From Tomocerus qinae (Eukaryota; Arthropoda; Collembola; Entomobryomorpha; Tomoceridae): DNA of 64,000 nucleotides. Positions 829-64,000 of this stretch are shown here, piece after piece. The translations under genes were made by a program, and so were the position numbers. The notes beneath the pieces were generated by a model. It ran no database searches and was not told the origin of the DNA. It saw only the letters and a list, made by a program, of their open reading frames with translations. The DNA is taken from contig CM034546.1 in the NCBI GenBank assembly GCA_020055645.1, positions 101,804,001-101,868,000 of the forward strand, given 5' to 3'. The first letter of the stretch is position 1. Every line of letters begins with the position of its first letter.

Positions 829-3800
829 CAGTTGATTCATTAATATCTAATTGCATGAACAGTCTCCGTCTCCAAACGTATTTGACCCTATTTGTATAAC
901 CAAAATCATTTATCATCAAATAACAATTTCACAATGTTTATTGTATAGCGCATTTGGATGGCTTGTATAGCTATAGATATCCTGTAATATTTAATCAATT
1001 CAATGACTAAACGTGTTTGTGGTTAGCTATTTGTCCATTGACTGTCTACAAGTAGCTTGTACTTTTGATAACTCTTTAATAACTAAATTAATATTTAAAA
1101 TTACGTAATTAATATTTAAAATTAGTAGTAGCATTTTTCTGAACATTTTTGTATATAAAGTAATCAACTTGAATCTTTTATACAACTTATATCTGTAGTC
1201 TGTAGCAGCATTAGTAATCCTTGGAATTAGACAAGTGTGATATAATAATCTGAACTCTGAACATAAATAAACTAAATTAAAAGCGCAAATAAAGAAGTCC
1301 CGACTACAAATGTAAAAAATATAAGTAGTGATTAATGAACACTTTTGAAATACTAATGATAAGTTAAGTATTTCAACATTTAGTCATTCTTGATTGTAGT
1401 CTATAGCTATACTCAACCCGAGGTAGATATAGCTACTTCGTAAAGTAATAAATTACGAATCGATAATAATATATTTGCCTTGGGCTACTGCTATACTTTT
1501 AAGGTTTTAATTTAGTTACTAGACTAAAAATAGAACAATGATAATTATTATAATGAGAATTATTAGAAATGGTTTATTTTGAATATTGTTTTTCATAAAG
1601 TTTTTCTTGCATTTTGTTTACTTTCCATCGGTTGTAAAATAAATCGTAGATGTTTCCTATAGTCGATTAGATTCTTAAAGTTTATAATACGTTAAAACTT
1701 ATATATTTGTAGTACTTATGGTTAAACTTATTTGTTTGCGCCGACTTAATTATGTGTAGCTGAATGCAATTACGCCTACGGATTTTGTGTGACTTTCTCT
1801 GTCTTTGCTGCATAGCGTAGCATGTTTTGTTGTAAAAGATAACTCATTTTTTGTTAAATAGCTTAAATAGTGAAAATGTATCTATATTTACCAAGTACTT
1901 TTACTTTGCAAATGTGTTATGAATATCGAATTTCAGAATTTGATTCAATACAGTACATATTACCTATATTCATTCAGGAAGTCTTATGTATATGCTCAAG
2001 TACCTATACATAAAGCCATTAAGGTCTAGGCACTGAATAAGTAATGATTTGACTTTTGAAGGCCAAATTCGGCTCACACCATACAAGTCTTTTGTGTGTA
2101 CCTTTATCATATACTTTGTTAAGTTAAATAGTTTTTATTATAGTTTATTAATACTAATTGTTTTGGAAACTTGGTACTGTATGAGTTGACGACTGCAGCT
2201 TAGCTTAAGTCCGACTGGACTACATTATTATGCGTTTATTATGATATAATTGATAAGATGAGAGAGGATTTATGTAGTCAGGGATGTTTAATATAGTTAA
2301 ACATTTGTAATCTGTTAATCATTAGTAATGTGCACGTAGTTGCCAATTTATGCCTATATCCTATGATAATAATAACTATTATAAGGAATTGACTCATAAA
2401 CTTAAAACTTACTATACTAAACTTGTTATGCATATGCATATTCAATAATATGGATGCAATAGTTGTAGCTACAGCTAAACTTAAATTACTCAAGCTGCTG
2501 CAGAGGTTGCCTTCAGTTATGATTAAATACGGAGAGTTGAACTTCACATGTACAAATAAATAATTAAGTGTCCAAAACGCATAGTGTAAGTATTTCGTGA
2601 ATCAAGTACGTACGACAACGACATTTAGTAAAGATTAGGCATAGCGGTATAGATTATTTACAATTACAATAAAATGACAGACAACAAAACGTGGGCGATG
2701 TATTGTGTGTGTACTACGTGTTAATTGCTCCAGCGCAACTTTCATGCAAAACTCGAGCAAAGTATTGATATTGAATAAAAAAAATGACATTTCTTTCTTA
2801 CGTACTTATACATCCTTTTCTTTTCCTTCCGTTGTCATTTGCGTAGCACTTTCCATACTATGACGTGTATTTGGAATTTGAGCATACAGTGCATCACCAA
2901 AACTGCTAGGGTTAGCCCTAAAATAAATAAACTGTCACACGGAAGCAAGAGTTTTGCGTAGACAGAGCTTTACTTGCGTTGTTCCATTTGAGACACGAGT
3001 GTAAACGATAATTATTTTATTCCAATCTTAGTCTCAATCTCAATACATTCTAAACCATGAAACATTTTTTTCGTTAATTGCTTAGTGAAAGTTGTCTATG
3101 AAGAAATTTTTTTTAATCTGTAAAAGTAATTGTGTTAGGTGTATAGAAATTTAACTTTATCTCACTGTAGAAGGTCTTATTCAGATACAATGGCCAGTTA
3201 AACTTCACTATAGTCTATAGTCATTCCTATCAATTATTATGACTCTCTTTAAGATCATCCTACCCGATTTTGTAACAAACGTCAGCTAGAAAAATACCTA
3301 TGATTATAACACAGAATGTATAGACTGTGGTATATCATTGATTAAGACGGAGAAATTCAATCCATGATATGATGCATCTAAGACTAAGACCATGGCTTAT
3401 GAATGCCTACAAAAAGCTCTTTTGATGTTTTGTTACAAAATAAATCAGGGTTCATCACGTCCATGTGATATAACAATCATTTTACAATAGAAAGGTACCA
3501 ATTCAACTTAAAAATCATCGTTCCATGAAGTTCCTTTTGCTAGTTAGTTATATTTTGTCCACCATGCATGTATTTATTTACATGTATTTATTCAATTTTT
3601 GTATTCGTTTACCAGTAAGCAAATGCATTATGTAAGGGTTTCTATGGCTAAAACCATCCAAAACTTTTGCATGTGCCCTGAATAATAAATTTATGGTCGT
3701 CTGCACCAGTGACCACCGCACCATTTTATTGACCACTTTTTCTGCATCTTTTCTCAATATAGTACCTGTCCATAATGGATTTCTCAAAAAGCTGTTTATA

Positions 3801-4138
3801 TCTCACACTTTTATGTATTTCTGGTTTGATTCGGCTTACTGCTGTTGAATGCGGACGTGTGTTAGGGAAGGCTAAAGGTTGCAGCTTCGTTTATCATTTT
3901 GCACTGGCTACAGTTTTTTGAAGATTTAAATTGAGTTCTGAATGTGAAACTTATATAGTAGAAATTGAGTTTAAAGTAACGGTTCATGTGACTTTCACCA
4001 TTCCCTTTCACATGCGAAAGTCATATGACTTTCACTGTGAAAGTTCTACACGGAAAGTTGTAGTATCCTAATAGTAATAACTCTAAAGAGAAAACTCATT
4101 TAAATAAAGAAAGCTGTAACAGTAGCGTTCTAATTTAG
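829..4138. other. MOSPD 3' UTR and intergenic DNA
   Basis: This stretch is AT-rich with no supported exon. The first ~460 bases are probably the 3' UTR of the MOSPD gene, with AATAAA at 1266-1271 and 1288-1293. The last ~150 bases contain an array of GAAAGT boxes upstream of the next gene, listed separately. Short open stretches here have no recognisable similarity. Confidence 0.6.
3989..4055. promoter_or_regulatory. Cluster of GAAAGT/ACTTTC boxes with an 18-bp perfect palindrome
   Basis: Within about 65 bases there are six copies of the hexamer GAAAGT or a close variant, in both orientations. The centre, 4016-4033, is a perfect palindrome: GAAAGTCATATGACTTTC. The cluster ends about 85 bases before the ATG of the secreted-protein gene at 4139. 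The spacing and symmetry suggest binding sites for a dimeric transcription factor; the factor is unknown. Confidence 0.45.
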
Positions 4139-5896
4139 ATGCAGAATTGCAGATGGAAATATACAAGGACTATATGGAGCATACATATATCGCTACTTTT
4201 ACTGCTGTTAATTTCTAATGTAACAATAATGATCAGAAATGTGATTGCATTGCAGTTGAGAATTTACTGGTACAAAATGAGAAAGATCATAGTGAAGTGA
4301 AAAGATTTGCCACAAAGGAGGATAGCATTGAAAAAGATGCTCTGGTCAAAATTAAAAGTAAGAAAAAGAAAAGAGATGCGAGCTTGGCTTTACTGCAAAA
4401 ATATCAGCCCGTATTTCCAGATATCCAGCCAGAATACTATGATCCAATTTTGGAGAAGAGAAATACGAATGAAGATGCCATTGCTACTACCATAATGAAT
4501 AACAATGATAACGCAGTTTCTGGGAACTCCAATGTTTTTGGTACCAGTAAACAATTTTTGAAATAGACAAATAAAACACTCCGACTTACATGATTTTGAT
4601 AGACATAAATGCAAACAGAAACGGAGAAAAGAGGAAAATCACATCTTCATCTTCGTCATAAGACTCGTAAAAGGAATAAGGATGACCAGGCGCCATTAGC
4701 CATTCATATTGAAGAGACAATGGGTCTTTTAACTTCTACAGAGAATGTGCTACCAGTTCTAGAGGAGTTAATCCCGTTCATGCCTCCGAATGAGGATGTT
4801 ATGTCACCTGATGTTCCATATGCCTCAGTTTTTGATGTTTGGGCGAATAAAAATGTAAAATCAACGTCCTCGGGGACTATTGGGGTTACCACATCAAATT
4901 CGCCCACATTTCAAGGTAGTAATTCATGTTTCGAAAATTTAAGACAATATTCAGTTAGTTAGCAAGCTGTTACACATGGGTATCTTATTTCATTAACAGA
5001 TATTACGGAGCAGGATATTGGAAACGATTTATTTAGACTTGGGCGAAATGTCCAAGCTAAAATTATTGGACGAGCGGCAGCAGATGATGAAACTACTGTT
5101 ATCGATACTCCTCCAGTGAAATATGAAGGGACATTGGAAAACGCCAAAGCAGCATGTATACCTGATTACATAATTGCCCAAGAGATTTATGGACCAGAGG
5201 TACTTATTACCATACACATAATTTTACCATGGTTCAGTCATTTCCTTTTCTATAAGGATTCTTTAATATTGCTTTTTCCCCATAATGCAGTATTTATATA
5301 TATATAGCAAATTTTGTATATCCCAATATAGAGTGAATCAAACAAGAAGACTTGGGTGGATAATAATAAGGGTCAGATTTGTAACTACAATAAGTTTCTA
5401 AAGTGTCTAGATAAAGATAAGGCCACGACAGACAAAGGCGACTCAGAATCAGATTCAGATTCAAAAAAGACCTACTGTGGATGCATTTTACCTGAGTTAA
5501 TATATAATGGTGATAATTGGTAAATTTTATTAAGAATTTTATTTTTCTTATTCATTTTTTGGTTTATTCTAATAAAGACTATTTGATATTTTACAAGAAT
5601 ATTTGCAAATCTGTAGTTACATTCCTGCGGGTACGACAGAAAAATCCAAATGCCCGATAAAGATATCTCCTTCTGCTGGGAAGTTCCCTGGTGCCCCTGT
5701 CCTTTCTATTCCGTGCACCGCCAACTCAGAGTGTGTCCAAAGACCGGAATTTTTTGGTAGCCGTTGTATATGTAAACCCAACATAAAATTTCACCGAAAT
5801 ACTCAAACCTGTGGAAATGCCCCGAATACTATTTTCTATCCAATATTTCAAGTCTTGTTGGTACTAGGAGCTTTGGGGACCATCTTTGCATTGTGA
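4139..5896 (+). CDS. Uncharacterised secreted, probably GPI-anchored protein with a C-terminal EB/EGF-like Cys cluster
   Basis: I did not recognise this gene. Six exons keep phase throughout: 4139-4219, 4261-4540, 4619-4915, 5000-5199, 5332-5519, 5617-5896 (441 residues). The start is chosen because it opens a signal peptide with a run of leucines (HISLLLLLLISN). A basic, Lys/Arg-rich part follows (KIKSKKKKRD, RHKTRKRNKDD), then a segment rich in acidic residues, then a Cys-containing domain. The last exon has spacing resembling an EB or EGF-like module (PCTANSEC then SRCICKP and TC). The protein ends in a hydrophobic tail (FQVLLVLGALGTIFAL) with no charged residue after it, as in GPI-anchor signals. 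It probably sits on the cell surface. The first acceptor is ambiguous: AG at 4260 keeps frame from the signal peptide, while the stronger CAG at 4255 does not. The exon 1 junction is the weakest part of the model. Confidence 0.72.
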
Positions 5897-17596: not shown

Positions 17597-20500
17597 ATGA
17601 GTATGAACTTCGGAAACTTTTCACCTTCTAATTTCCAAACTTGTTTAACAAGCAATAGTTTAAGTGGAAAACTCCGAGCTGGTCTTGGAGTTTCCATTTC
17701 GGAGAGAAATGACGGGGGCAACAACAATTTCCTTATGATTTCCAAGTCAAGAATCCCCGATATTCAAATGATAAATAGATATTACGGACTTGTTCCTAAG
17801 AAGTTTACCATTAATTCCCGTAATACAGACCAAAGGTAAGTTTTTACATGAACATACAATTTAAATTAATGTTTTCTCTTAGAATATAATATATTGAGAT
17901 GAAATACGATGCAAAAGATTGCTACATTGTTTCATTCAAAGTAAATCTAGAATGTACAGAAATATTTTTATTTTTTGGTAGATATTTGATATTAATAGAT
18001 TAACATTGATGGATATAACATTGATAGATACACGCTATAAACCAGATGAATTTGGATGAATTCGGATGAATTTGGATGAATTTGGATGAATTTGGATGAA
18101 TTCGGATGAATTTGGATGAATTTGGATGAATTCGGATGAATTCGGATGAATTCAGATGAATTACGATGAATTCGGATGAATTCAGATGAAATCAGATGAA
18201 TTCGGATGAAATCAGATGAATTTAGATGAAATCGGATGTACTATTTTTAAGCCTAATACGTGTATTCAAGGCAAAATGATTCCATGCTTTATAGTTAGCA
18301 AAGCATAATCATGTTAGGCATGTAAATGTAATGAAAAGTGAATATATTCTGGAAAACGAAGAATTAAAATGTTGATTTTGAAAAAACAGCTCAAAACCTG
18401 GGAGTACAAAATTGCGTGCAAAATCCGCGTATACATTTGACTACAGTAACAATAATTCGGGGAAAGGAGGCCGTTCTTTGCGAAATGACAGCAACAGCTT
18501 TTACAATTCAGGGAATGTGGGGAACAATCAAAGCGATGAAAAGTACAATGACCCACAATCGAAATCTCATTCTGTCCAGTACAATAACTGCGGAGAGACA
18601 AAGAGTCGGCGAAAATCGGAAGTGTCTCAAAATCGACGTGGTTCTCTGTCAGGGCAAGTGGAAGTTGTGGCAAAGAAAATGCCCGTTGAGAAATACAAAC
18701 GATGGAAGCGAGCGAAAAGTTTGTCTCTAATGGATAATAATGCAAATGTGAATAATAATTCTGGAGAGAAGGATAATAGAAATTTTCAACGAGTGATTAA
18801 GATAGACTTGAATAATATGCGATGGGAGGAGAGTTACCAAACAAAAACGACATCGGTCCTTTTGTCTACTAACGAAAATTCAGAGAACAACTTGGACTTT
18901 GACTCTGGTTGTGACCGATCAAATCCCACAGAGTGTTCTCCTCAAGTGCAAAATGAAAATCCGAATCAAACCACAACTTCCTCCTCCCTAATTAGTAATA
19001 ATGAGACTAATAACCTAAATAGCTCCGCAGTGTGTGCTAATGGTTCCGTGACGAAGCGGGGCTCTCTCCGGAAAACCATTAGCTTTGATGAGCAGCTTCT
19101 ACAAAGTACTCCTGCTGAAAACCTTGTCACAAAACCAGGTAAATATACTTATAATGCAAACACGTCCTTCTCCATATTACTCTGTCTTATCTTTTTACTA
19201 AGGTTATAATTCTAATATATTCCCACCATTTTATATATCTATAAATATAGCATGCGTTGCATAAGTGCCCGTCATAGTCATAACACTTCCTACAAGTTTA
19301 GTCCACTTGCCATCCTTTAGAAGCTCATTTCTTTTTTAGCATTGATTCCTTCGTCTGGTATTTTCACACTGTCCGATGTCCTCTGTTGTTATACATAAAT
19401 ACAATGTAAGTGGCCACAAACAAAACTTGAAAAATCTCTTTCAACCTATTCAAAATATCATCGATATTATTATATATTATCATAATTTTAAAGTTTGGCA
19501 TTATAGAAGGAAATACTATTTCGTGACTGCATAGTGAGTGAATATTAACAAATGATCAAAAGTTCAGTCTGTGCAAAGTTTAATCGAAGTTTTTGTTCCA
19601 AAGTTAGATTAGGAATATTAAATCGTTCCCCACATCCGATTATTTCATGACAATATGTATATAGTTCTTATCAAGTATTAAGAACTTGTAGTAATTAGTA
19701 TTAAGTATTATTAAGAATAGGTAGTATATACTGGTAGATGTAGGACTGAAAAATTTGTCGTTCTTCAATGTATACCAACGGTTTGCTTATTGGGAGTTCT
19801 TTGATTCATGAGCATGGTAAGACAAATTCAGTATTTTATTTACTGGTTTTTAAATGCTGTACTCCTTTTGATTGCTCTCCATTTAGTTGCTAAAAAATTA
19901 GGAGGTTAATGGCAGATACAATACTATCGTGCATGGGTGATATTTACTTGTCAATTTTATAGTACAATCTATTACAAATATTACAATACAATAATAATAA
20001 TATGATATACTTTAGATGCTTCTGGAAAAAGTCGTCGTCCGATGACAGCAACGACAAGGCCGGTACAGAATTCAGCCAATGCATTTAAAGTGACTGCGTG
20101 GACAACTCGTGCTGGTCAAACAACTAGCGATCGTCGATCAAAGCTTCAAAAGTCAAATTCTATTCAAAGTGACCGTGACCAGTTTTCGTCTGTCGATACA
20201 TTTGGGCAAGGCGAGTCAGACAATGAGCAGGAGGGATCTGCGGATTTCCCCAGTTGGGCATACCGTGAGAGTCGTAGAACGTTGCATGTACAAGCTCTCC
20301 CCGAAGTGAGCACCATGGTGTCGGCTATCAGCCCCCCTGCAGACGAGGAAATTCAGTCGGAGATAGAAAAGGTCGCTCAAATGCTCAATAATTTACAAAG
20401 CCAAGAAAAGTGCTTCGCCGAACCTCAAGCAAATGTGAAGAGCGACCTTGTCAATGGTGAAAGCATTTGCAAAAGTGAGCATCAACACTCGATTGGCAGT

Positions 20501-26225: not shown

Positions 26226-27992
26226 ATGTGTGGAGGCGATGCCCAATTTCAAAATGTGCTACTCCTTGGAGTATCATTTATGTTTGTATTCACAGCGTTT
26301 CAAACTATGGGAAATATTGAGGTACATTTACTACTAAATGTCAAATTTGTTTAATTGATGCATATTTCATTTAAAAGCTCATTGTGTGATTTTAATTTGC
26401 AGCAAACTGTCTTGAAAAGCATACAAACAGAAATTCCATCCTTTAAAGGAGATGGCTACACGAGTCTGGCAATTATTTATGCCGTTTTCTCAATTTCAAA
26501 CTGGCTGGCTCCGTCCATTGTTGCTGTTATTAAAGCTAAAAGTGCTATGATATTTGGAGCTGTTTTATACACAGCGTTTATTGCAAGTTTTCTTTACCCA
26601 AAAACATGGCTTTTATACGGGATGTCAGGGATTTTGGGTTTGGGAGCAGCTGTTCTTTGGACAGCTCAAGGGAATTACTTAACACTGTGTTCCAACGAAG
26701 AGACAATGTCCCAGAATGCTGGCGTTTTCTGGGCGATACTGCAGAGCAGGTAAATATAATGACAGAATAATAAAATGCTATTCGTACAACGCAAGATGTA
26801 TAATGACATTGATTATTTTTTGTCTGTATAGTATGTTCATTGGAAATCTCTTTGTCTTTTGGCAATTTGAGGGAAAAACTCAGATTGATTTTGACACTCG
26901 GACATTAGTTTTTGCAGTACTCACGGGTATAGCTATAGTTGGTGTAATATGTCTCCTGTTTCTAAGAAATCCAGAGTAAGTTGCTAAATCATATGATTTT
27001 CTTCGCAAATCATTTCTAAATCTAGTTATTAATGTCAAACGGTTTGTATTAAACAGAGCTTGTGTAGAAGAACATGACGATACTATGACTCTTCCAGTTA
27101 CAAATGAAAACGCCACGTCTGCCTTAAAGAAATCTTTGAAACTATTTACCCGAAGAAATATGATATTATTGGCTTTCACCTTCTTTTACACGGGAATTGA
27201 GTTGTCCTTCTTCAGCGGAGTGTACTCCTCATGTATCGGCTTTACAAATCAATTAGGAGAGGCTAAAAGACTTGTTGGACTCTGTGGGATTTTAGTCGGG
27301 GCTGGGGAAGTTCTTGGAGGAGCTTTATTTGGACTGCTGGGATCTAAAATTAATTTTGGAGGTATTTCTACAATACTTGCAGACTTTATTGTTGACATTT
27401 TGCAATATTTAGTATTTCAATAGTTAGTTTCTAATGTTCACAGGACGAGATCCGATAGTTCTTCTTGGATTCCTATGCCACACGTTGGCTTTCTACTTGG
27501 TATTCATCAATCTGCCGAATGATTCCAATTTAGGACCAACAGAAACATTTTCTTACATAAATCCTCCATCGGCCATTGTGGCCATGATTTGCGCATTTTT
27601 GCTGGGTAAAATACCGACCTAATTTTCCCATTATTTATGAAACAGCAGATTGTAAAAATAGTTGTTTTGAAATAGGTTTCGGAGATGCGTGCTACAACAC
27701 TCAGATATACTCGATACTAGGGGGATTGTATCCAGACGAGTCAGCTCCTGCATTCGCTCTTTTCAAATTCACCCAATCAGCAGCTGCAGCTGGCTCATTC
27801 TTCTACAGTGCTGTACTTCCTCTTCGGGTTCAATTAGGGATTTTACAAACATTTTGTGTGATAGGCTCATTTACCTTTTTCATAGTCGAATGGGAAACTG
27901 TAAGGAAGCAGAGGGATACCGTAAGTATTGCAACTGAATCTTCAGTAGACGGAGAGGAAGAGGAGGAGGAGGAAGATCAGAAATTCAATTAA
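26226..27992 (+). CDS. MFSD11: MFSD11, UNC93-like major facilitator protein
   Basis: Six exons (26226-26321, 26403-26749, 26832-26975, 27057-27361, 27444-27605, 27676-27992) encode 456 residues, close to the ~450 of vertebrate MFSD11. The first segment, NVLLLGVSFMFVFTAFQTMG, followed by QTVLKSIQ is the UNC93/MFSD11 signature. Further hallmarks are GLGAAVLWTAQGNYLT, NAGVFWAILQSSMFIGNLFV and FFYTGIELSFFSGVY, plus GGLYPDESAPAFALFKF near the end. About 12 hydrophobic segments fit the major facilitator fold. The natural substrate of this family is not established. The ATG at 26226 was chosen because vertebrate proteins also begin about ten residues before the first membrane segment; the frame stays open upstream to 26064, so a longer N-terminus is possible if the upstream sequence is not an intron. 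The C-terminus is a poly-Glu tail. Confidence 0.93.
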
Positions 27993-45440: not shown

Positions 45441-46488
45441 TTACTTTGCTTTAGACAACCTTTGTGCAACATCTGACCAGTTGGCTATATTAAAAATGTT
45501 TTTAACATAGTCGGGACGAACGTTTTTATACCTGCAATAAAAATGTAATTATTTTTCAAACAATTCAGACAGCAAAAAATACCCTTTTTAAGAATGGATA
45601 ATGTTTAATTACTGAAGATAATATGCGTGTTCCCAAACATCAATTCCAAAAAGTGGAACAAGTCCAGTTGTTGCCTCAAGAGGGTCTTGATTAGCACAAG
45701 TTGCAATTTCGAGTCGTTTTGTCGTTTTATTGTACCCCAACCATCCCCATCCACTACCTGCAATGGTATAAAATAATTTTACTCAAAGTTCCTCAAACAA
45801 TAATAAATCCATTAATGACGCTATATTGTCCTTGTCCTTCTCCATACCTTGAACTGCAACTGTAGAACCACTGAGACGAGTCTTCATGTTTTCAAACGAA
45901 CCAAAGTCGCGTTTAATAGCTTCCATAAGTTCTCCTGGTTTTAAATATAACAATTTTAGTAACAAGGATATACAATATGATAGAATTTACAATATGGACT
46001 AAAATTGATGTTCAACCTACCTGAAGGTTCTCCTCCCCCTTTCGGGCTGAGATTTTGCCAAAATATAGAATGATTGAGATGTCCACCACCATTGAACTTG
46101 AGAGCAGCCCCAAGAGTTATGATGGAGCTGACATCATTTTTAGCTTGAGCCTCGGCCAATTTTTCCTCTGCCACATTTAAATTGGCCACATAAGTGGCAT
46201 GATGCTTTGAATGGTGGATTTTCATTATGTCCGCAGAGATAGTTGGCTCTAACGCATTGTAATCATACGGTAAATCTGGGAGAGTGTGTTTTTCTCGAGA
46301 TATTAACTGAAATTGCGCTGCTGGAAGAGTAGACTTCACTCTATAACGATAACATGTAATAATAAACAAGGTGATCATTTTCATGATTATTATTACATGT
46401 GTATATATTTACTTCCGAAAGCTGAATTTTCGTTATTGAACATGAATATTACCAACCTCATTAAAACTTTATTGCAGTGACGAATCAT
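45441..46488 (-). CDS. SOD2: Mitochondrial manganese superoxide dismutase
   Basis: Five minus-strand exons (46457-46488, 46021-46340, 45848-45934, 45613-45757, 45441-45531) encode 224 residues, the usual length. The N-terminus ([20 protein letters not shown]) is basic, as in a mitochondrial targeting peptide; mature sequence starts at [16 protein letters not shown]. The four metal ligands are visible: His in [11 protein letters not shown], His in [13 protein letters not shown], and Asp and His in [27 protein letters not shown] and [10 protein letters not shown] are typical of the eukaryotic Mn enzyme. It converts superoxide to hydrogen peroxide and oxygen in the mitochondrial matrix. No residue appears lost. 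Confidence 0.96.
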
Positions 46489-48670: not shown

Positions 48671-50307
48671 TTTATAGCTGGTAGCATCAGGGGTTTACGA
48701 TTCACACAGTATCAGTCTCTAAAAGTAAAAAACATAGTAAAACAAAACATAAAATGACGTTTGTAATTTCTAGATATTCAATTAAAAATTTCCCACAATA
48801 ATCGATTTTTTTCACCTTATAATTCCAAAATACACTTTTTAGATGCTAACAGTCACCTCAACCATCAGCGTTTTGTAAGCAATATTCTTAAAATTTGAAT
48901 CTAAGACAGACGGCAACTCTTGATTGTGTGGGCAATGAGGATTTGTTGTAATATGGTCTTTAGATTGGATGTTGCATAAGTAAATATCTATTTATTTATT
49001 TAGAATCAAAAACAGATTGAGCAGATCCCCAAATCCCAATATTGTCGGTTCTCGGCTATTAGTGTAGGTCCAGGTCGCAGGTACTCTTTGTGTAAACAAG
49101 ACTTTTTCATGAAAAATGTTTTAATATAATACAAATATTTTATTTTCATATTATTTGCAATAAAAATCAGCTTAAATTTTGAAAATAATGTTTTTTAACC
49201 AAAAAAGTTCACTTACTTTTGACTTCTACGTTCAACTGTCGCCTACTACTTTCTCATTACGAATATAACCGCTGCGATAACCAAAGGGGCAGAGCTGTGT
49301 TGTTCAGATATAACAGCTTTTACTGAATTCACGGACGGTCACGATCAAAACAATTTGAATTGAATCAAAAGGAAATGATGATTCGAGAACGAATATTTGC
49401 GTTATTGCGTCTATACTTTAAAAATTCGGCTATAAAGTATCGGAAATCCAAATATAAAGTCTTTAGTCTCCGAGGAATCTTCCACTAGACGAATGTAGAT
49501 GATTCCTCGGACATACCGATAGACACTTCATTCTTTACTTCTTACGTTGGGATTGGGAGCGATGTTGTCATAATAATAGTAAAGTCATAGTCATATCAAA
49601 CTGAAAATTAATGCTATCAAGTGAGCCTTTTTATGATGTAAAACGTAGAAACGATTATTTTTGGTTTTTTCTAAGATTGCCTTTAGTTAGCTATTTATTA
49701 TGGTGATAATGTGCGTGTAAAACATTAAAACTTCCTAAGACTGTGTGGATGATAATAATGAATAATTTGTGATTTGTTGTAGTTTAATTGGTACTTTTAG
49801 TACAACAGCTATATAATATAGCTACAGTTACAATAGTACAAAGTTACATTATGCCATAATGCCCCATATATTTTAAGAGCAAAGTTTATTGTATTTGTAC
49901 ATTTTGCATAACTTTTTCATGAAACCGATTGAACAACCGAGTTCAGAGAAATCAATGTAAAATTCAGCTAAACTATATATACTTCAATCTTCTCACATTA
50001 TTCGATAATGAATAATGACCATACCTAACTTACGATACAATACAGATAACTTACAATATATGTAATTTTACAATTTACAACTAACAACTTAACCATTCTA
50101 TGTAGTATGCACAAAATTCACCCCAAACCTCTGTTCCAAGTTCCTACAGCCTAACTGCATATACAGGCTATACATGTACATCACCCCATGACCCCCATAT
50201 GTTCCCAAATGATCTATAACAACCTTTACTCAAAAATAATTAACTTTTATTACTTTTGTAATTTTATTAACTTTGACAAACAAAATGTTAAATTCGGCGT
50301 AACCCTA
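48671..50307. other. GTF2F2 upstream region and 3' region of the repeat-protein gene
   Basis: The left end holds the GTF2F2 5' UTR and promoter without a clear TATA box. A perfect 11-bp stem (TCCGAGGAATC at 49469-49479 with its inverse at 49501-49511) lies in the middle. The right part is the likely 3' UTR of the repeat-protein gene on the minus strand. No other gene is supported. Confidence 0.45.
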
Positions 50308-52569
50308 CTAATTTGCAGGTCCATTTCCTGGTCCATACCCATTAGGATTAACACCCTGAGGAGGACCACCGTATTGGTTTTGATTTCCGAGCCCTAATGC
50401 TTGATTATTGTTGGCTGCACTAATTGGGGCAACACCAATATTGCCAATGAGTCCACCTCCGCCTGGAGGCCCAGCTACCCCAGATATTCCTCCGGCGGCG
50501 CCAGAAACTGCTCCAGGGGCGTTAGGTGCACTAGGAATTCCGCCCCCAGGGGCACCAGGAATTCCACCCGCACCATTAGCGGCCATGTTTTGTTGATTTT
50601 GATTTCCCAGACTTCCTATTTGATTATTGTTGGCTGCACTAATTGAAGAAACGTCAACATTTCCAATAAGTCCACCACCGTACTGACCAGGTGCTCCATT
50701 AGGGGGACCACCTTGTGGACCACCATATTGACCTGGGGCTCCGTTTGGGGGACTGCCATAAGGACCACCATTAGCCATTTGATTTTGCTGCATTTGATTT
50801 CCCAGCCCTAATGCTTGATTATTGTTAGCTGCGCTTATTGGTGAAACTCCTACGTTTCCTATGAGTCCGCCTTGCCCTTGAGGTCCGGGCCCATATGGAC
50901 CAGCAGGAGCTCCATTAGGTGGACCACCATATTGACCAGGGGCTCCATTAGGGGGACCGCCTTGTGGGCCAGGGACTCCATTAGGGGGACCACCTTGTGG
51001 GCCAGGGATTCCATTAGGGGGACCACTCTGTGGGCCAGGGGCTCCATTAGAGGGACCGCCTTGTGGACCAGGTGCTCCATTAGGGGGACCGCCTTGTGGA
51101 CCAGGTGCTCCATTAGGGGGACCGCCTTGTGGACCAGGAACTCCATTAGGGGGACCACCTTGTGGACCACCATATTGGCCTGGGGCTCCGTTTGGGGGAC
51201 CGCCATAAGGACCACCATTAGCCATTTGGTTTTGCTGCATTTGATTTCCCAGCCCTAATGCTTGATTATTGTTTCCGGCGCTTATTGGTGAAACTCCTAC
51301 GTTTCCTACGAGTCCGCCTTGTCCTTGAGGTCCGGGCCCATATTGACCTGGGGCTCCATTAGGTGGGCCGCCATATTGACCAGGGGCTCCATTAGGTGGG
51401 CCGCCATATTGACCAGGGGCTCCGTTAGGTGGACCACCATATTGACCAGGGGCTCCATTAGGTGGGCCACCATATTGACCAGGGGCTCCGTTTGGAGGTC
51501 CGCCATAAGGACCACCATTCGCCATTTGATTTTGCTGAATTTGATTTCCTAACCCTAATGCTTGATTGTCGTTGCCTGCGCTAATTGGGGAAACTCCTAC
51601 GTTTCCTACTAGTCCGCCTTGTCCTTGAGGTCCGGGTCCATACTGACCTGGGGCTCCGCTAGGTGGGCCACCATATTGACCAGGGGCTCCGTTAGGTGGA
51701 CCACCATATTGACCAGGGGCTCCATTAGGAGGACCACCATATTGACCAGGGGCTCCATTAGGAGGACCACCAGGTGGTCCAGCTTGTGGATTAGGTGGAC
51801 CGCCATAAGGACCACCATTGACCATTTGGTTTTGCTGAATTTGATTTCCGAGTCCTAATGCTTGATTATTGTTGGCTGCGCTTATTGGAGCCACTCCTAC
51901 ATTTCCTACAAGTCCTTGAGGTCCTGAAGATGCAGGGACACCGGGAACGTTGCCTCCATTAGGAGGGCCATATGGCACATTTCCATTAGGCCCATTAGGA
52001 TTAACTCCTGGAATAGGACCGTTACTTGGGTTAGCTCCTGGGGCTCCGTATTGTGGTGGAGCTCCATAATTATTTAACTGATTTTGTTGAGACTGATCTC
52101 CAAGTGCACCGATTTGGTTATTATTGGCAGCACTAATAGGGGCCACACCTACATTGCCGATGAGCCCACCTTGTGGTGCTGAGGGAACTCCACCCGTAGG
52201 TAATCCATTTGAATTGGGTCCAGCAACAGCCCCTACGGCTCCGTAGCCATTTGGATTAATTCCAGCACCATATCCATTTGGATTAGCTCCGTATCCTCCT
52301 GGGGGACCTCCCCCTCCATTACTCATTGCATTCTTTTGCACTTGATCTCCAACTGCACCGAGTTGGTTATTATTGACAGCACTGATGGGCCCAGTATTGA
52401 TGTTTCCAGCTAGTTGAGGTGTGACTAAGGAAATATATAGACATTCAAATTAGATAATATTATAGTTGCATGTGTTTAGTGGCAAATTAGGATGAAAGGG
52501 ATGAAATTGTAGTTTACCTTTAGGAAAAGTCACTATACCCAATAGAACAAAAAGTAATTGACGAATCAT
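50308..52569 (-). CDS. Secreted Gly/Pro/Asn/Gln-rich protein with eight modules and silk-like spacers
   Basis: Two minus-strand exons, 52518-52569 and 50308-52424, encode 722 residues. The family was not recognised. Exon 1 gives a signal peptide (MIRQLLFVLLGIVTFPK). The rest alternates eight copies of a ~30-residue module, consensus GLIGNVGVAPISAANNNQ followed by ALGLGNQIQQNQMANGG, with spacers built from an 11-residue repeat GGPPNGAPGQY or GGPPNGAPGPQ (about 20 copies, in blocks of 4, 5, 9 and 2). Spacers often end GPGPQGQGG. There are no cysteines and few charged residues. The Gly/Pro spacers resemble elastic silk or cuticle proteins; the Asn/Gln ladder in the modules suggests stacking beta-structure. 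A structural, secreted matrix, adhesive or cuticular role is an inference. The first and last two modules are more divergent than the inner ones. The gene has a TATA/initiator promoter. Confidence 0.85.
50680..51800. repeat. Coding tandem repeats (33-bp units inside ~300-bp higher-order units)
   Basis: The DNA of the repeat protein contains about 20 copies of a 33-base unit encoding GGPPNGAPGQY-like peptides, grouped into blocks separated by longer conserved modules. Adjacent 33-base copies are nearly identical, while the PQ-type block (about 50950-51170) is a distinct sub-family. This pattern fits unequal exchange, so allele length is probably variable between individuals and assembly here may be collapsed or expanded. 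Confidence 0.9.
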
Positions 52570-52620: not shown

Positions 52621-52655
52621 CTTGATAGTTGCAAAATCATTTCCTTTTTATACCC
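52621..52655 (-). promoter_or_regulatory. TATA box and initiator of the repeat-protein gene
   Basis: On the minus strand GGTATAAAAAGG lies at about 52655-52643, followed about 30 bases later by ATCAAGC, a fair initiator, near 52626-52620. The start codon at 52569 would follow a leader of about 50 bases. Confidence 0.6.
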
Positions 52656-53885: not shown

Positions 53886-56800
53886 TTAATTGGCATATTT
53901 ACTGGCCTCTTTTAGTCGTCGCTTCATTTCCAAGAGTCTGAAATATCATAAAAAGTGGTAAAATCGAATTGAGAATTTCATAAGTCTATAAAAATTAATT
54001 AAAATTGTTTCATACTTGACAAGGTCTTTCCACATTACTGCTTGATTTACCCTCTCAGCTTGTCTCTCCACAATAAGCTTCTCTTCTTCTTTTAAGGCTT
54101 TTCCTAATTTCTCTTGTTCGCTTACTTTACTCGTCAGATTCTCTCTAAGATTATTTTTATTCAGTAGAATATTAAATAAATAATTTTTACGTTATTATAG
54201 GACAAAATACTTTTATTATTACTTGAATGATTTTTTCCTGTCTTGGTTATTGCCAGATGTGGTGTAATTTTTTAACTCTTCTTGCATTCGGCGAAGATCT
54301 ACTTTATGAATCACAATTTGGGCCTGTAGTTTAGAAAACTTGATTTGATCTTCCTCGTATTTCTTTCGGTAACTTTCCACCTCCTACGTATACCCATGCA
54401 TAGTTAAATATAATATAAATATGTACTATAAGTTAAGCTGTCTAACAAATAAATGGAAAGACAAAAAAATTGTAAGATTGTAACTATACTGGTTTATACA
54501 CTTGCACCTATTTTCTAAATGCTCCTATACAAGAAAACAAAACAGTATAATAAACTGTAGTTTTTCTGTAGGGTCAGGTAGATTTTGCAATATGCCCAGT
54601 TGTAAAATAATACTTCTTTGCTAAGTTATCAAAAATGCGTTTTGACGTACTTTAGTTAATGCACTCATATTAGACTCGATGGATGTGGCTATGCTGTCAT
54701 ACTTTCTTTTGAGAGCTTCGTGTTCATGTCCCAGAACTTGAGACTGCTGCCGAATACTGTTCAAATCTAAAGACAATAAATGATGACATAAAATAAAATA
54801 ATATGCAAATATGGGGATGTAGGTAAAACACAGGTAAAATATTTTACTTTTAACAAGAGGAGCTAAATCAACTTTTTTCATTGCTATTTTGTCGTGAAGC
54901 TCTTGAACTGCTGACGACATTTGCTGCAGATTTTTGTTTTTCTGTTCGTCCAGATAACTTTTCTCAGATGATATTTTCTCCAGATTATCTTGCGCTTCTA
55001 CAAATCCTTTTATACCCAAACGGGCTTCTAAAGCTGCCTGCAAATTAAATACGTAAATAAAATTTAGGTAAAAACTGGAGGGGAAAACTTGAAATTGGAA
55101 ATATTAATAAATACACAGAAGGATAATTACCAAATCGAGAGAACTGTTTTTTAATTCCTCGTCAGCAATGTAAACGGTCTTGGCTAAAATACCACCTTCT
55201 GCCTTGAGAAATGAAAGTTCTGCTTTCATCTGTTTGTACCGTGTGCTTTTAATTCGCAGATTTTTTACGTACTCTTTAAAATCTTCTTCTTTCATTGTCA
55301 CATCTCCAGCAAATGCGGACAATTGTTGCTTTTTTTCTGCTTCATCTTCTTTTAAAGCTGCCAACTCTGTCCGAAGCTCATTTAATTTTTCTACCAGTGT
55401 AGACTTCCTATTGGCCACTATTGCAGCTTGTTGACGAAACATTACTAATTTATCATCTTCTGTTCTCATCATTCGCTTCATCACCATTTCATTAACTTCA
55501 GATTTAACCGCATCAATCTAGAAAAATCAGATTCAGAAAAAGCTACCGATATATTAATTATATAATACCCTGTAAATTAAAGTGCTTGAAACTTTACTTT
55601 GTTTTTGGTGTTTTCCAAATCTTTGGGTGACAGAGCAGTTTCACTCATGACTCTTTCAAAAATAAGCACTTCTTTTCGCCTGGCATCAATTTCTTTTGGC
55701 AGCTTTTCGTTAACGATGTATTTGGACACATCTGTGTCTTGTTCCAATCTTTGTAGAATCCCTTCCGCTGTTGATCCGGTATTTGCAGCTTTGATTTCCT
55801 TCAATTGTCTTTGTAGTCTTTGAATTCTTTGTTCTGCTTGATTCACGGCTTGGGATTGAGAAATACTTTGCTGGTCTAATTCTCTTGCTTGTTCTTTTTC
55901 TTTACGAAAATTCCTAACTACCTCAAGAGTAGATTCTATATTTGGAACACCCTCAGCCTGAGATTGAAAACAAAACATGTATTAAAATCCTGCATGATTA
56001 CAATTTTGATGAGTAATGGTTAATTCACCTGTCGTTTCATCTTTTCAATCTTCCTTGTGACACTATCCTGTTCTTGCTCCATAGCGGCAATATCCTTACG
56101 GATTTCCGATGTTGTAAATCCTTTGCTCCTCATTGTCTCCAGTTGTTTGTGAGCGTTTTTGAATTGGTCTATCATACCCTCGTACTAAAATCACATAATT
56201 AGAAAATTGTGTGATATTGATATGCAAGATATGAGTTGTATCAATCTTACTTGCTGATATAGTTCTTCCACTTCGATATCTGACCGAATATCTTGAGGGA
56301 TATCCAATTTGACCAGAAATCTTGCCAAATATGCCCTGGTCTTCAATTCGTCTATTCGAGGGAGCAACCATGCTAGAATCGGATGAATCACTTTTGTGCT
56401 CCCGGATATCAATCCAGATCTTAAGGCTGATCTATGTTACCCAGTAAAAATAAATAGTACTGAATAAATGTCTATCTATGCATGCAAAGTTCTTGAAAAG
56501 ATGTTAGTATTACTACAAGTGATTGAATGTCAGTGCATATTTTAATTCAAAATATTTCACTAACGGATTGTCATCTGGAGGTTTATATTTTAGAACCCGT
56601 AGCATATTTAACATCCGAACTACCGTTTGTTCCGGTCCTTCTTCCCTGATGTCCAATTTATTGGACGGTTCAATTTCAGCCAAAACATCATTCAGTATCT
56701 AAAAAGTTTATGGAAAACTAATTACTAATTACACAGTCGACTATTATCGGCTTGGAATACCTACTTTTATAATAAAGTTACATATACTCAATAGTTTTTA

Positions 56801-58131: not shown

Positions 58132-58315
58132 AACTCCTGACCATTGGATGATGAAATTAAGTTCGTGTTTTGGAACAAAATCTACAAATTATTCTGCAGT
58201 AGCCAATACTGTATAGTTTATCGTTAGTATTTTGATTAGGTAAAGAATTAGCCAAATTGAATAAGTTTATCTAATTAGCAAAAAGCGAAAAGTTGGGTTA
58301 GTAATCGTGAGTAGA

Positions 58316-61300
58316 ATGGAAAAGCCACGTGCAGCTCCGAGAAATGTGTTCAATAACAACAATAATGATCCAGAAAAGGAAGTCACAGAAGATTCGACAG
58401 AGCCTCAGGAAACTAGAAGTCGAAGACGTCCCGGAAGACGGCATAATCAAAGAGATAGAGACAGAGATAGACCAGATACATTTGACAATGAGAGTGACTT
58501 GGATGCGGCAGAGTTAAATAGGCAAATCGAAAAGTTGGAAAGGGATTTGGCTCGACGGGAAAGGGAACTGGATGAGGAACGTAGTGAGAACGAAAGAGCT
58601 CTGGACAAAATCAAGAAACTGGAGAGGGATAAACTGGAACTTAAGAGGGAAGTGGAGGATTTCAGGGATGAGGCCAATGAGTACAAAAGAAACTTTGAAG
58701 AATTGAAAACGAAAATTAAAAGAGCAGGGATTTCTTATGGAGCTACGGACTTTGATGGCAACGAAGATGAATTGAGCCATAATCACGACCTTCCTACTTC
58801 TGCCAAAAACTATGAACTAATACTGCAACAGAAAAACAGAGAGATGACTCAACTAATTGAGGATATTGAGGTATTTAGTAGTTAACTCATTTAGCAAATG
58901 GATTATTGGTTCTAAAAGTACTTTTTTTTCTGTATAGAAATCTGAAGATGACAAGCGGACATTGCAGGAGAAAATGTCTGAACTGAAAGATTCACTACAG
59001 GAAGCAACAGTGCAAATAGAAACGATGGCTAACGATCATTTCAACATGAAATCTAAATTGGAAAAATCTGAGGATAAAATCAAACAACTTGAAGAGGAAA
59101 ATTTAGTACTTGGAATTAAGCAAAAAGATCTAATCGAATTTAAAGAACGCCATGATAAATATCTGGAGAATCTATGCAGTGCAGTAGATGTTCGGGTTGA
59201 CGTTTGGAAGGTATGGGAAAAAATGAAGTATAAATTAGGTCGATATACTTGTGCTTAGTACAATATTTTTGTGACAGAAAATGATGTTTGAGAAAGATGA
59301 GGAGATTGACCGATTAAATGTGAAAGTAGCCACAATAATTGCACAACAGTCCAACAACCAGGCAGACAGTGAGAAAACTGTTATACAGCAATTGAAAATG
59401 GTAAATATTAATTATTGGGATCCGCATTTTTAATCTATAAATAGAATATTTGTAATAGAATATATGAATCTCGTTGTGTTGATAATTTTTGAATCTAGAA
59501 ACTTCTAGAGCGAGAACAACAACTCACAATGCTGAATGAAAAGTTGAAGCAAGCTACGGATGAAATAAACTCGAGTGTACAAGTTATTGAGAATCTTAAT
59601 TCTAAAATTAATGCAACAGAAGAGAGCGGTCCGACAGGAAAACAGATGAAATCTGTACAGTTGAAACTGAAAAAGTGCGAACTACAGCTAGAGAAACGCA
59701 GCAAACAGTTGAGTCTTGTAGAAAAGGAAGCGGAAGACAAATCCAGAGAAATCGCTTGTCTTTTGTCTAGAATGCATGATTATGAAGCAGGAGAATACGG
59801 TCTTCCTGAAGCTGTATCTGAAATTAAAGAGCTAAAGACACAAATTCGTATTCGGAATACACAAGTGGAAACCCTGACTCAGGAATTAAATATACTTCAA
59901 TTACAAGTAAATGATTTGATGGACGAGAATGATATGCTGAGAGCTAAACTGGGGAAAGAACAAACAATAGACTTGCAAGGGGAGACGAAAAGGTATTGCA
60001 AGAATAGAAAGAACGAAGTTTCTGCATTGAGAGCTAAAGTTACAGATCTAGAGGAAGAGATTGTTCAGTTGAAAACATCCAATAGGTCTTTAAGAAAACA
60101 AGTCAATCAACTAGAACAGTCTCCTCCAGAAAGGGAAATGGAGCTGGTTCCATCTCAAAGACCGTTTTCATCCGCTACAACAGATTTTCATGGTGAAGGT
60201 TCAGGACGTACATTGGCAGCGAATATTTATTTCAATGATGAAGAATGGAAAGAGAAATATGACATAATTCTCGAAGAAAACACTGAGCTTCGTAGGGGGA
60301 TGCAGGATATTCTTGACGAAATGCATAAATTAAGCGGTGAGTTTTGATTAATGATTTATTTTTATCCATGTAGATTGCATTGCATAATCCATTTTCTGTT
60401 ATGATATGTAGAAGAGAGTTCTTCAGATATTCTCATTCAATCCCCGGTTTTGGAGAATCTACTGCGGGAGATGTCAGCAAGAGGACTAATTCATTATCCT
60501 TATTCCATTACAAGTTTCCATCTTAAGGTGTGCAATATAGAAGGAAAGAATTCTCAGTTGAGAGAGGAACTACACCGAGTACGGCAAGAAGAAAAGCAGT
60601 GTAGAATGGAGCTGAGCGAAGCAAAGTCAACAATTCGAATTCTAGAGGATAGGCTTAAAACAGCGGAAGAAAAAGTAGCTGAAGTAGAGCTAACACCGCG
60701 TATTTCTCGCCTCCGCTCCAGATCACACTCCCCATCGTATCGAGGAAAAAAGGTTACTTTCGACAATGGAAGTCAGGAAATGACTAGTGAATCCGAGAGT
60801 GGGATTAAAAATAGAACTGAGTTTTCAGATACGGAAGATTTTAAACCTGTTGTTAGTACCGTTGGTGTTAAAAATGTTGTTATTGATGATATCTTAGTAG
60901 AAATTGAAAGCCTTCGAACTGTCAATGCAGCGCTCAAGGAAAAATTTAGACAGGAGAAAATTATTTTGGAAGATCAACTGAAAATGGTGGAAGAAAAAAC
61001 TAATAATCTTTTAGATGCTACTGATAATGATACTGATGCCAAGATGGTTAGGAAAATAGAATTCCTCAAGTCCATTAGAGATGCGAAAAACACAGAGATA
61101 AATTTCCTCGTAAAACGAATCACAGAAGTTGAAAATGACAACTTGAGTCGATTGGGAGCTTTGGAGAGATTCAAAGTTAAAGCCCTCCATCAGATTTCTG
61201 TCTTTCAGCAAATTCTAGAAGGAAGTGTTCCAATGCATTTACTCTACGCTACCAAAAAACAGCTGCGTGAGCTTTCTTCAAATTATGATGAGATGAAAAT

Positions 61301-64000
61301 TCGGGAGGAACGCATTGCGAAAACTCAATTGGATTTCCATAAGAAAGAAGCGTTATTAGCCACTTTGAAAGAGAAAGATGAGAAACTCGAGGAAGAAATT
61401 GAGATTCTGCAAGGAAGAATTCTCCTTTTAACTGTGGACATTGAGCAAAAGCAAAATGCTTCGCCATCGAAGGGTAATGATGAAAAGTTAAACGCATCTG
61501 AAATAAGGAAGGAGGAGTTCAAGAGTAGGCTCGACTACCAAATCAAGATGAATTTAATGCTAAAAAGTCAGATAATTGAATTGGAGAAATCCAAGGGAGA
61601 AATGGAGAAGAAAATCACAACTCTGATTGAAAAAGTTACTTCTGCTCAAAGCGTCGAGAGAGAACTTCGCGAGAAAACTGTCGAAAGCGTGTCGCGAGAG
61701 GAATATGATTCTTTGACTAAAAAACTGATTACAATAGAAGAAAAACTTTTAATGGAGCGCGATGATACAATTAAATGGAAGGAAATTGCAGAAATGGCTC
61801 AGAATCAAATCAAAGCTATAGAAAATATCAAGGACTTTGAGCGAATGGAGTACGATTCTTTGTTAGTTCAAGCTACAGAACTACAATCCGAATCCAACGA
61901 AAAAGCTTTTGTAGCCAAAGCTCAAAGACAAATTTTGGTTGCAGAAAAGGAAAAGCATCTTGCTATACAACAAGTAAGCACCAAAACAAATTATTTCATT
62001 TAATAATTTAATTGGTCACTGTGTTTTTGTTCTTTAGGTGCAGAAACTACTCTCCAAGCTAAGTCATTTAGAAGCAAGTACACTTCAGCAAGAAAAAGTC
62101 AATCATGACAGAGAAATGGCTTTGATTTCTATGCACACCCAAGTGATTATGCGATATCGCACCCTGTTTGCCGCTCTTCATGAGAGTAATTCTGTAAGAC
62201 CTCCTGTAAACAGAGAAGGAGTTGACTTTGCCGAAGCGTTTAATTTATTTACAAAAGCACAAGAAAAATGTATCGAGTTGGAAAATCAGCTGTTTTCCGA
62301 AAGAAATAAGTTAGACGAGTACGAACAAAGGTGTAAAACTTTAGAAGATATGCTGACAGCCATAAAAGATGGAAGCGAACAAGATTTTACAATTAATTCA
62401 ATGCAGAAAATACAAGATGCTAGGATTGAAGTAGCAAGGTGGAAAAGGAAATTAGAACAGAGTGACTCCAAATGTGCCAATCTTCAAGAATCCGTTCATC
62501 GTTTGGAAACCCGGGCAAGCAATCTTGAAGAGGATCGAATTCGTTTAGAACATTCGCTAGAACTAAAAGATTCGTTGACATCTACACTGATAGCTACATC
62601 GGTAGAAAAGGGTAGTAATTTACCAGGAGATATTTTGTCATCGACTTCCCTCCCAACCCTATTGGCCATCAACTCATCCCAAAAAATTAGTCTAATAAAA
62701 ACCCACAAAGATACACAAACGGACGATAGTTATCTAAATGTAAGTACTCGAGAAGATGGCTCCACAGAAATGATTTCCAAGAACGAAAACCTTGAAGAAT
62801 TAGAGACCCTTCGGATACGAATTTGCGAACTTGAAAATACAGTGCAGACAAAGGAAAAAGTAATAAATGAATTCAAACTAGTACAACTACCACCACCTAA
62901 TGTCTCCAGGAGTCGCTTTAATATAGACGGTTCGGAAGAAGGCTTGATTCATCCTGCGGACGTTCAGGAAGCCCTTGATATCGCTAAAGAAAATATAACT
63001 TCGCTAAACGATCGCTTAAAAACGAAAGAGGATAGCATTAGCCAATATAGAAAACTGTTGGCTGAAGTTCGCACAGAAATGAGTTCTACTACCGATCGTC
63101 ACGTCCAGGAAATGAGAGCTTTGCAGCTGACCATTTACCAACAACAGCAAGCATTCGCCAGGTTAAAATATTATTATTTTCTATACCTATATACTCATCA
63201 CATCTTAATACTAATTAGTAATTTAATGCAGAATGAAGTCCACATTAAGTCAGCCGGTTAAAGACACACTGAACATTGAAGGGACTATTAAAGATCAGTT
63301 GACGCGGATTCATGAACTAGAAGATGAAGTCTCCGAACTTCAGCACGCACTGGGTAATGTCGCTTCGCAATTAACTACAGCACGGAGTGAAGCGCATCGT
63401 TGGCGCTGCACATCAGATGCAAGGTTGAAGGAGTTGGATTCTGCAAGGGATCAACTTTCATCTGAAAATGTTGAAGAGATTCAATCTCTGAAGCAAAAAA
63501 TACAACATCAGCAAAAAGCTATTGAAGAGCTCCAAGGACAACTTCTTGTAAATAAATCCACGTCATCGTCATCCCTCACAGAATTAGTAACCGTACTAAG
63601 AAGGGAATTAGATGAAAAAGAAAAGCAGCTAGATATCTTCATGAAAACTCTTCAAAATACAAGGGTATGATCATTTTAATGTTTAATTTTAATGTTTTAA
63701 TGAACGTGAACTAATCATCTAGGGCTCTGCAAGACTGGCAGAAAACAAGCAGATTGAAGATCGACTTCTTTTAAAGGAGAAGGAAATTGAAGATCAAAAG
63801 GATCAAAACAAGCAACTTCAACAAAAGGTGAGGTATAAAATATTTTTGATTAGAATTAACATCCTTTCTTTAATCCTTTTTTTGTACACACGACTTCCAG
63901 ATTGCAGCTCTTCAAGTTAGAGTAAGTAAATTGAAAGTAGTCAATATGAGAAGTGGGGCGTCTTCTGAACTTGAAGAACTTCGGCAAAAGTTTAGAGATC
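58316..64000 (+). CDS. CEP290: CEP290, centrosomal/transition-zone coiled-coil protein (3' end outside window)
   Basis: Nine exons, 58316-58870, 58938-59210, 59278-59400, 59499-60336, 60412-61973, 62038-63161, 63232-63664, 63723-63827 and 63901-64000 (continuing), give about 1,704 residues so far. Almost all is coiled coil. Clear CEP290 landmarks are DYEAGEYGLPEAVSEIKELK, VNDLMDENDMLRAKLG, ALERFKVKALHQISVFQQIL and, late in the window, LNDRLKTKEDSISQYRKLLA. CEP290 builds the Y-links of the ciliary transition zone and gates entry to the cilium. The protein starts about 190 residues later than the human one: an Asn- and Arg-rich leader (NVFNNNNNDPEKE, SRRRPGRRHNQRDRDRDR) replaces the conserved N-terminal coiled coil. 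Either this lineage lost that part or a first exon lies upstream. About 600-700 C-terminal residues are expected beyond the edge. Confidence 0.95.

Follow-up and report, generated by a model that had tools for sequence, protein, structure and literature searches.

What protein is encoded by the repetitive minus-strand locus between 52569 and 50308 in this window (the whole 64,000-nucleotide stretch of Tomocerus qinae that was analysed), and what could its repeats be doing? Read from the sequence, the locus is a gene of two exons separated by a single 93-bp intron, and it lies on C1, a 140.5-Mb contig from an animal chromosome, in a genome of 334.4 Mb (334,443,149 bases in 115 contigs). Exon 1 (52518..52569, minus strand), with 52 bases and its ATG at 52569, codes for MIRQLLFVLLGIVTFPK, a hydrophobic leader, plus one base. 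The intron (52425..52517, minus strand; GTAAAC...CCTTAG, phase 1), with splice sites deduced from the sequence, has a GT donor and ends in CCTTAG, and the reading frame is preserved across the exon 1/exon 2 join. Exon 2 (50308..52424, minus strand) codes for the remaining part of a predicted product of 722 residues and for the stop codon, within a minus-strand frame of 713 codons from stop to stop (50308-52449). Upstream, a sequence match to a TATA box (TATAAAA, 52646..52652, minus strand; function presumed) terminates 77 bases upstream of the A in the start codon, and past the stop codon two putative AATAAA signals, recognized by sequence match, lie at 50246..50268 on the minus strand (first bases 50268 and 50251). 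The mean hydropathy of the leader over nine residues is as high as 3.39. Judged by eye and by hydropathy, the leader is probably a signal peptide, with a cleavage site that by eye is less than ideal. Taken together, these features suggest a genuine arthropod gene whose product is a secreted, almost uncharged modular protein.

Part of the frame consists of 33-bp tandem repeats detected by TRF, and the GC content of the 2-kb stretch is 50%, against 32-34% in the adjacent stretches, as might be expected of a spurious open frame across a GC-rich minisatellite. On the other hand, the longest of the six-frame ORFs in 50308-52424 has 704 codons (100 single-base shuffles gave no more than 256), the splice sites, leader, TATA box and AATAAA signals are all in order, and the divergence between copies is biased to synonymous positions; a minisatellite artefact is thus extremely improbable. 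Over the 28 pairs of modules, the pooled pS is 0.654 and pN 0.174, with a pN/pS of 0.27 (pS is saturated in 10 of the 28 pairs, where dS is not computable). The pooled pN/pS over pairs of the 19 linker units is 0.26. In both cases the pairs are non-independent, and recent duplication and likely conversion among copies also shift the ratios; the ratios thus support a constrained protein, not modules constrained above linkers. Since the linker units match the modules in conservation by pN/pS, the modules are not singled out by selection. With synonymous change exceeding replacement change, the locus appears to specify a translated, constrained peptide.

Elsewhere in the window, a superoxide dismutase gene (PF00081) is found at 45956-46408 on the minus strand and a gene for an UNC-93 family protein (PF05978) at 26355-26753 on the plus strand. 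Two coiled-coil genes (53946-56431, minus strand, and 58265-63670, plus strand) resemble by eye IFT81 and CEP290, a likeness that a Pfam scan of four ORFs from these genes did not show. At 18045-18238 a 10-bp unit, GATGAATTCG, is repeated about 19 times (TRF score 269); this array has stops in all three plus-strand frames, and two of its minus-strand frames are partly open.

The product contains, after the hydrophobic leader, eight 28-residue modules with the consensus LIGNVGVSPISAANNNQALGLGNQxQQN. From the alignment, and all on the minus strand, module 1 lies at 52330..52413, module 2 at 52081..52164, module 3 at 51829..51912, module 4 at 51529..51612, module 5 at 51229..51312, module 6 at 50782..50865, module 7 at 50587..50670 and module 8 at 50368..50451. 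The first is the most divergent copy, and in the last the final residues deviate and merge into the C-terminal tail. When eight 36-residue copies are aligned, 12 of the 36 columns are invariant and the mean column identity is 80%. The eight Asn/Gln modules at 50308-52569 described in an earlier note on this DNA are confirmed, on the minus strand: the core ISA.N[ND]NQ occurs eight times in the 722 residues, and the best 28-residue self-match is identical at 28 of 28 positions, a figure that rose no higher than 15 when the residues were shuffled 20 times. The arrangement of the modules is regular in their order and not in their distances, with successive spacings of 83, 84, 100, 100, 149, 65 and 73 residues.

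The linkers between the modules are rich in Gly, Pro and Tyr and built in part of 33-bp repeats. Arrays of such repeats (TRF, minus strand) occur in the linkers between modules 3 and 4 (51638..51772), 4 and 5 (51338..51514) and 5 and 6 (50904..51169), where most of the sequence consists of 11-residue units like GGPPNGAPGQY or GGPPNGAPGPQ. The 33-base Gly/Pro spacers that had been claimed are thus present, but in the middle part of the protein only. Their description as elastic GPG spacers was inaccurate: the linker unit P[PS][NS]G[AIV]PG[PQ][YQ] is present 19 times and GAPGQY, part of the common spacer unit, 13 times, but GPG only four times and GPGQQ never. Modules and linkers differ sharply in composition: Pro and Gly make up 18.3% of the modules vs. 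59.3% of the linkers and tail (477 residues), Asn and Gln 34.4% vs. 17.6%, and Val, Ile, Leu and Met 26.8% vs. 5.7%. Among the 26 tyrosines, 25 are in the linkers and tail and one is in a module. Neither Cys, Glu, His nor Trp is present in the whole 722-residue protein, and the only charged residues beyond residue 23 are four Asp and one Lys.

With the exon 2 product as query, no Pfam family scored above its cut-off (the only row was DUF4949, with 17.8 bits vs. 31.1), NCBIfam gave no family, and nothing in the PDB was better than E 0.44. Scanned singly against Pfam, all eight modules were without a family at E<=10, in a search where the HMMER filters remove most weak matches; bacterial chaplins did not match in the Pfam scans. 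No second copy of the gene was found in the 334-Mb genome, where this gene is the sole match of three protein queries (N-terminus and modules). A DNA pattern for the core has 12 sites in the genome, of which eight are these modules and four are in surroundings that, when read, contain no module; a control pattern read backwards has none. Among prokaryotes (one genome per species, 84,980 species) there were seven pattern matches and among viral contigs 60, none of them confirmed by tblastn at E<=1e-3. A text search of the open-licence literature returned no paper with SAANNNQ, and among the matches listed for collembolan cuticle proteins, arthropod Asn/Gln amyloids and springtail silk no similar protein is named in the titles or the opening lines of the abstracts. 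The module was thus not found in Pfam, NCBIfam, the PDB, its own genome, prokaryotes or viruses, a scope that leaves arthropod proteomes outside. As far as it is testable, the earlier view of a secreted modular structural protein belonging to no known family is supported, with nothing significant in the three databases and a leader recognized by hydropathy.

A query with the spacer gave two matches outside this gene in the genome, both rejected as matches of composition. The first, on contig C4 (C4:17336001-17343000, ORF 2534-4162, minus strand), is an Asn-rich ORF of 542 residues, with two stretches at 45-46% identity and no module by eye; it contains PTNNINTQYGAP repeats and is silk-like. 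The second, a short ORF at C1:96206306, also without a module by eye, has 165 residues (C1:96204001-96209000, ORF 2115-2612, plus strand) and contains GPQYQMGMPMSG repeats.

Some other features of the genome were observed. Copies of cytochrome oxidase I, arthropod-like by eye, are present inside C1 near 36.67 Mb and 139.115 Mb; the matched part of one copy reads without stops under the invertebrate mitochondrial code, and another copy is split between frames. Runs of TTAGG are present. Peptide synthetase condensation domains have 12 matches, nine of them above the cut-off, in very long frames of up to 2456 codons (for example, C1 108415927-108418740). Together with the PF00379 matches described below, these features fit a springtail, although genes of the peptide synthetase kind are also reported in nematodes, rotifers, a spider mite and others (PMC10531068, seen in part). 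Isopenicillin N synthase was sought as a springtail marker: for DIOX_N there are 19 matches, two of which span the whole profile and match isopenicillin N synthase chains. That identity was rejected for both, with other oxygenases matching better and neither named by NCBIfam; no isopenicillin N synthase was found among these two, the full-profile matches tested of the 19.

Several known systems resemble the protein in part. Silk-like proteins (spidroins of the MaSp2 and flagelliform type; the SilkSlider class) are likewise repetitive and alternate associating blocks with elastic ones rich in Gly and Pro. The repeats and Gly-rich composition of that functional class are present here, with secretion assessed only from hydropathy and by eye. 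Such structural proteins are likely to have evolved independently, and silk of the spidroin type is marked by GPGQQ/GPGXX together with poly-Ala blocks, according to the part consulted of PMC4944945. In contrast to spidroins, the present protein has no poly-Ala (the longest Ala run is 2) and has the Asn/Gln module as associating block; GPGG is absent, like GPGQQ, and the Pfam scan of the exon 2 product shows no spidroin domain. Collagen-like Gly-X-Y triplets occur in runs of seven at most.

Resilin (Drosophila CG15920 type) shares Gly/Pro-rich repeats and regularly spaced tyrosines but differs in its repeat unit; YGAP, part of the resilin motif, occurs here twice. The domain Chitin_bind_4 (PF00379), typical of arthropod cuticle proteins and expected of CPR cuticle proteins and resilin, is absent from the exon 2 product in the Pfam scan, with 114 matches elsewhere in the genome. 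The ABU/PQN (APPG) proteins of C. elegans are likewise Asn/Gln-rich and belong to the moulted pharyngeal cuticle, which contains Gln/Asn-rich proteins for which the authors propose amyloid formation; in the portion of that article consulted they have at least 9% cysteine, vs. none here (PMC4232772).

Curli (CsgA) invites the comparison made in the earlier note, with the S-x5-Q spacing in all eight modules (and nine times in the whole protein). The curlin repeat spacing in its fuller form, S-x5-Q-x-G-x2-N-x-A, does not occur. Curli repeats adjoin; here the module starts are 65-149 residues apart. The curlin repeat profile has no Pfam match at E<=10 in either the exon 2 product or any of the eight modules, again with the HMMER filters removing most weak matches. 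The likeness is thus limited to the short spacing. A curli-like functional amyloid, in which each module would form one or more beta-arches stacking within and between chains, could also draw on the Asn/Gln-rich composition of the modules and on the Val and Ile in their first half. But none of the eight modules matches a Pfam family, and Asn and Gln together number at most 27 in any 80 residues, below the limit of 30 used in the prion census. Neither AlphaFold2 model (module 1 or modules 6-7) contains a beta strand, although the program models amyloid unreliably and is a poor test for it. The amyloid-like cross-links proposed earlier are unsupported by these models and by the composition, and we consider an amyloid role for the modules improbable.

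Given an alignment of the eight copies, AlphaFold2 modelled module 1 with a helix at residues 13-34; the model has a mean pLDDT of 66.9 and 15 of its 36 residues at pLDDT 70-90. The model that spans modules 6 and 7 and the linker between them (seven-row alignment) has a mean pLDDT of 44.3, with 85 of its 100 residues below 50 and weak helices in comparable positions of both modules; for tandem modules, whose structure the earlier note had raised, the prediction thus gives weak helices and no strand. AlphaFold2 weakly favours helix in the module. One could then imagine that short Asn/Gln-rich helices in the modules pair as weak coiled coils and act as cross-links between disordered linkers, a version of the block-copolymer organization discussed below. 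Both models draw the helix in the later part of the module and part of the single-module model is well scored, but the two-module model is mostly of very low pLDDT, short peptides are easily drawn as helices, and the conserved Gly and Asn form helices poorly. Such pairing is unlikely, although less so than amyloid.

With moderate confidence, and reasoning from sequence, we favour a gene whose product is a structural protein of block-copolymer type, secreted to the extracellular space. Most likely, the design is a familiar one, with alternating elastic and associating blocks, and the modules are unfamiliar. Judging from composition, after secretion the modules would associate as reversible physical cross-links, through hydrogen bonds of side-chain amides and contacts between Ile, Val and Leu. 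The linkers, with 59% Pro and Gly, would remain disordered, hydrated and elastic chains, and their regularly placed tyrosines could be joined by a peroxidase into a network, as tyrosines are joined oxidatively in resilin. The alternation of elastic blocks with cross-linking blocks is described, in the part consulted, as the common design of elastomeric proteins (PMC3291537), and a high content of Pro and Gly as holding elastin and other elastomeric proteins disordered, hydrated and out of amyloid (PMC5703643, likewise in part).

For this block-copolymer protein, the likeliest settings would be cuticle and secreted fibres, stalks or glues. The Pfam scan of the exon 2 product revealed neither a chitin-binding domain nor any other domain of cuticle proteins, which counts against this reading. 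An eggshell, spermatophore-stalk or gland secretion, compatible with the block-copolymer reading, is a reasonable possibility, if somewhat short of an even chance: composition and architecture suit any secreted silk-like material, and springtails deposit their spermatophores on stalks, but no data here distinguish such a secretion from cuticle. The confidences given to the helical pairing and to this secretion overlap with that given to the block-copolymer reading and do not add up to one with it.

Springtails are known for a granular, water-repelling cuticle. A bolder proposal, which we hold to be quite doubtful, is that the module is a new self-associating block, confined to the lineage, with which that cuticle would be built from a near-neutral, cysteine-free protein. 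In the part consulted of PMC9861782, the structural proteins of the springtail water-repelling surface are described only as glycine-rich. If the protein is in springtail cuticle, its gene would be a candidate for that surface; and, if the block-copolymer reading is confirmed, the Asn/Gln module would add one more kind of block to those that cross-link natural elastic protein materials.
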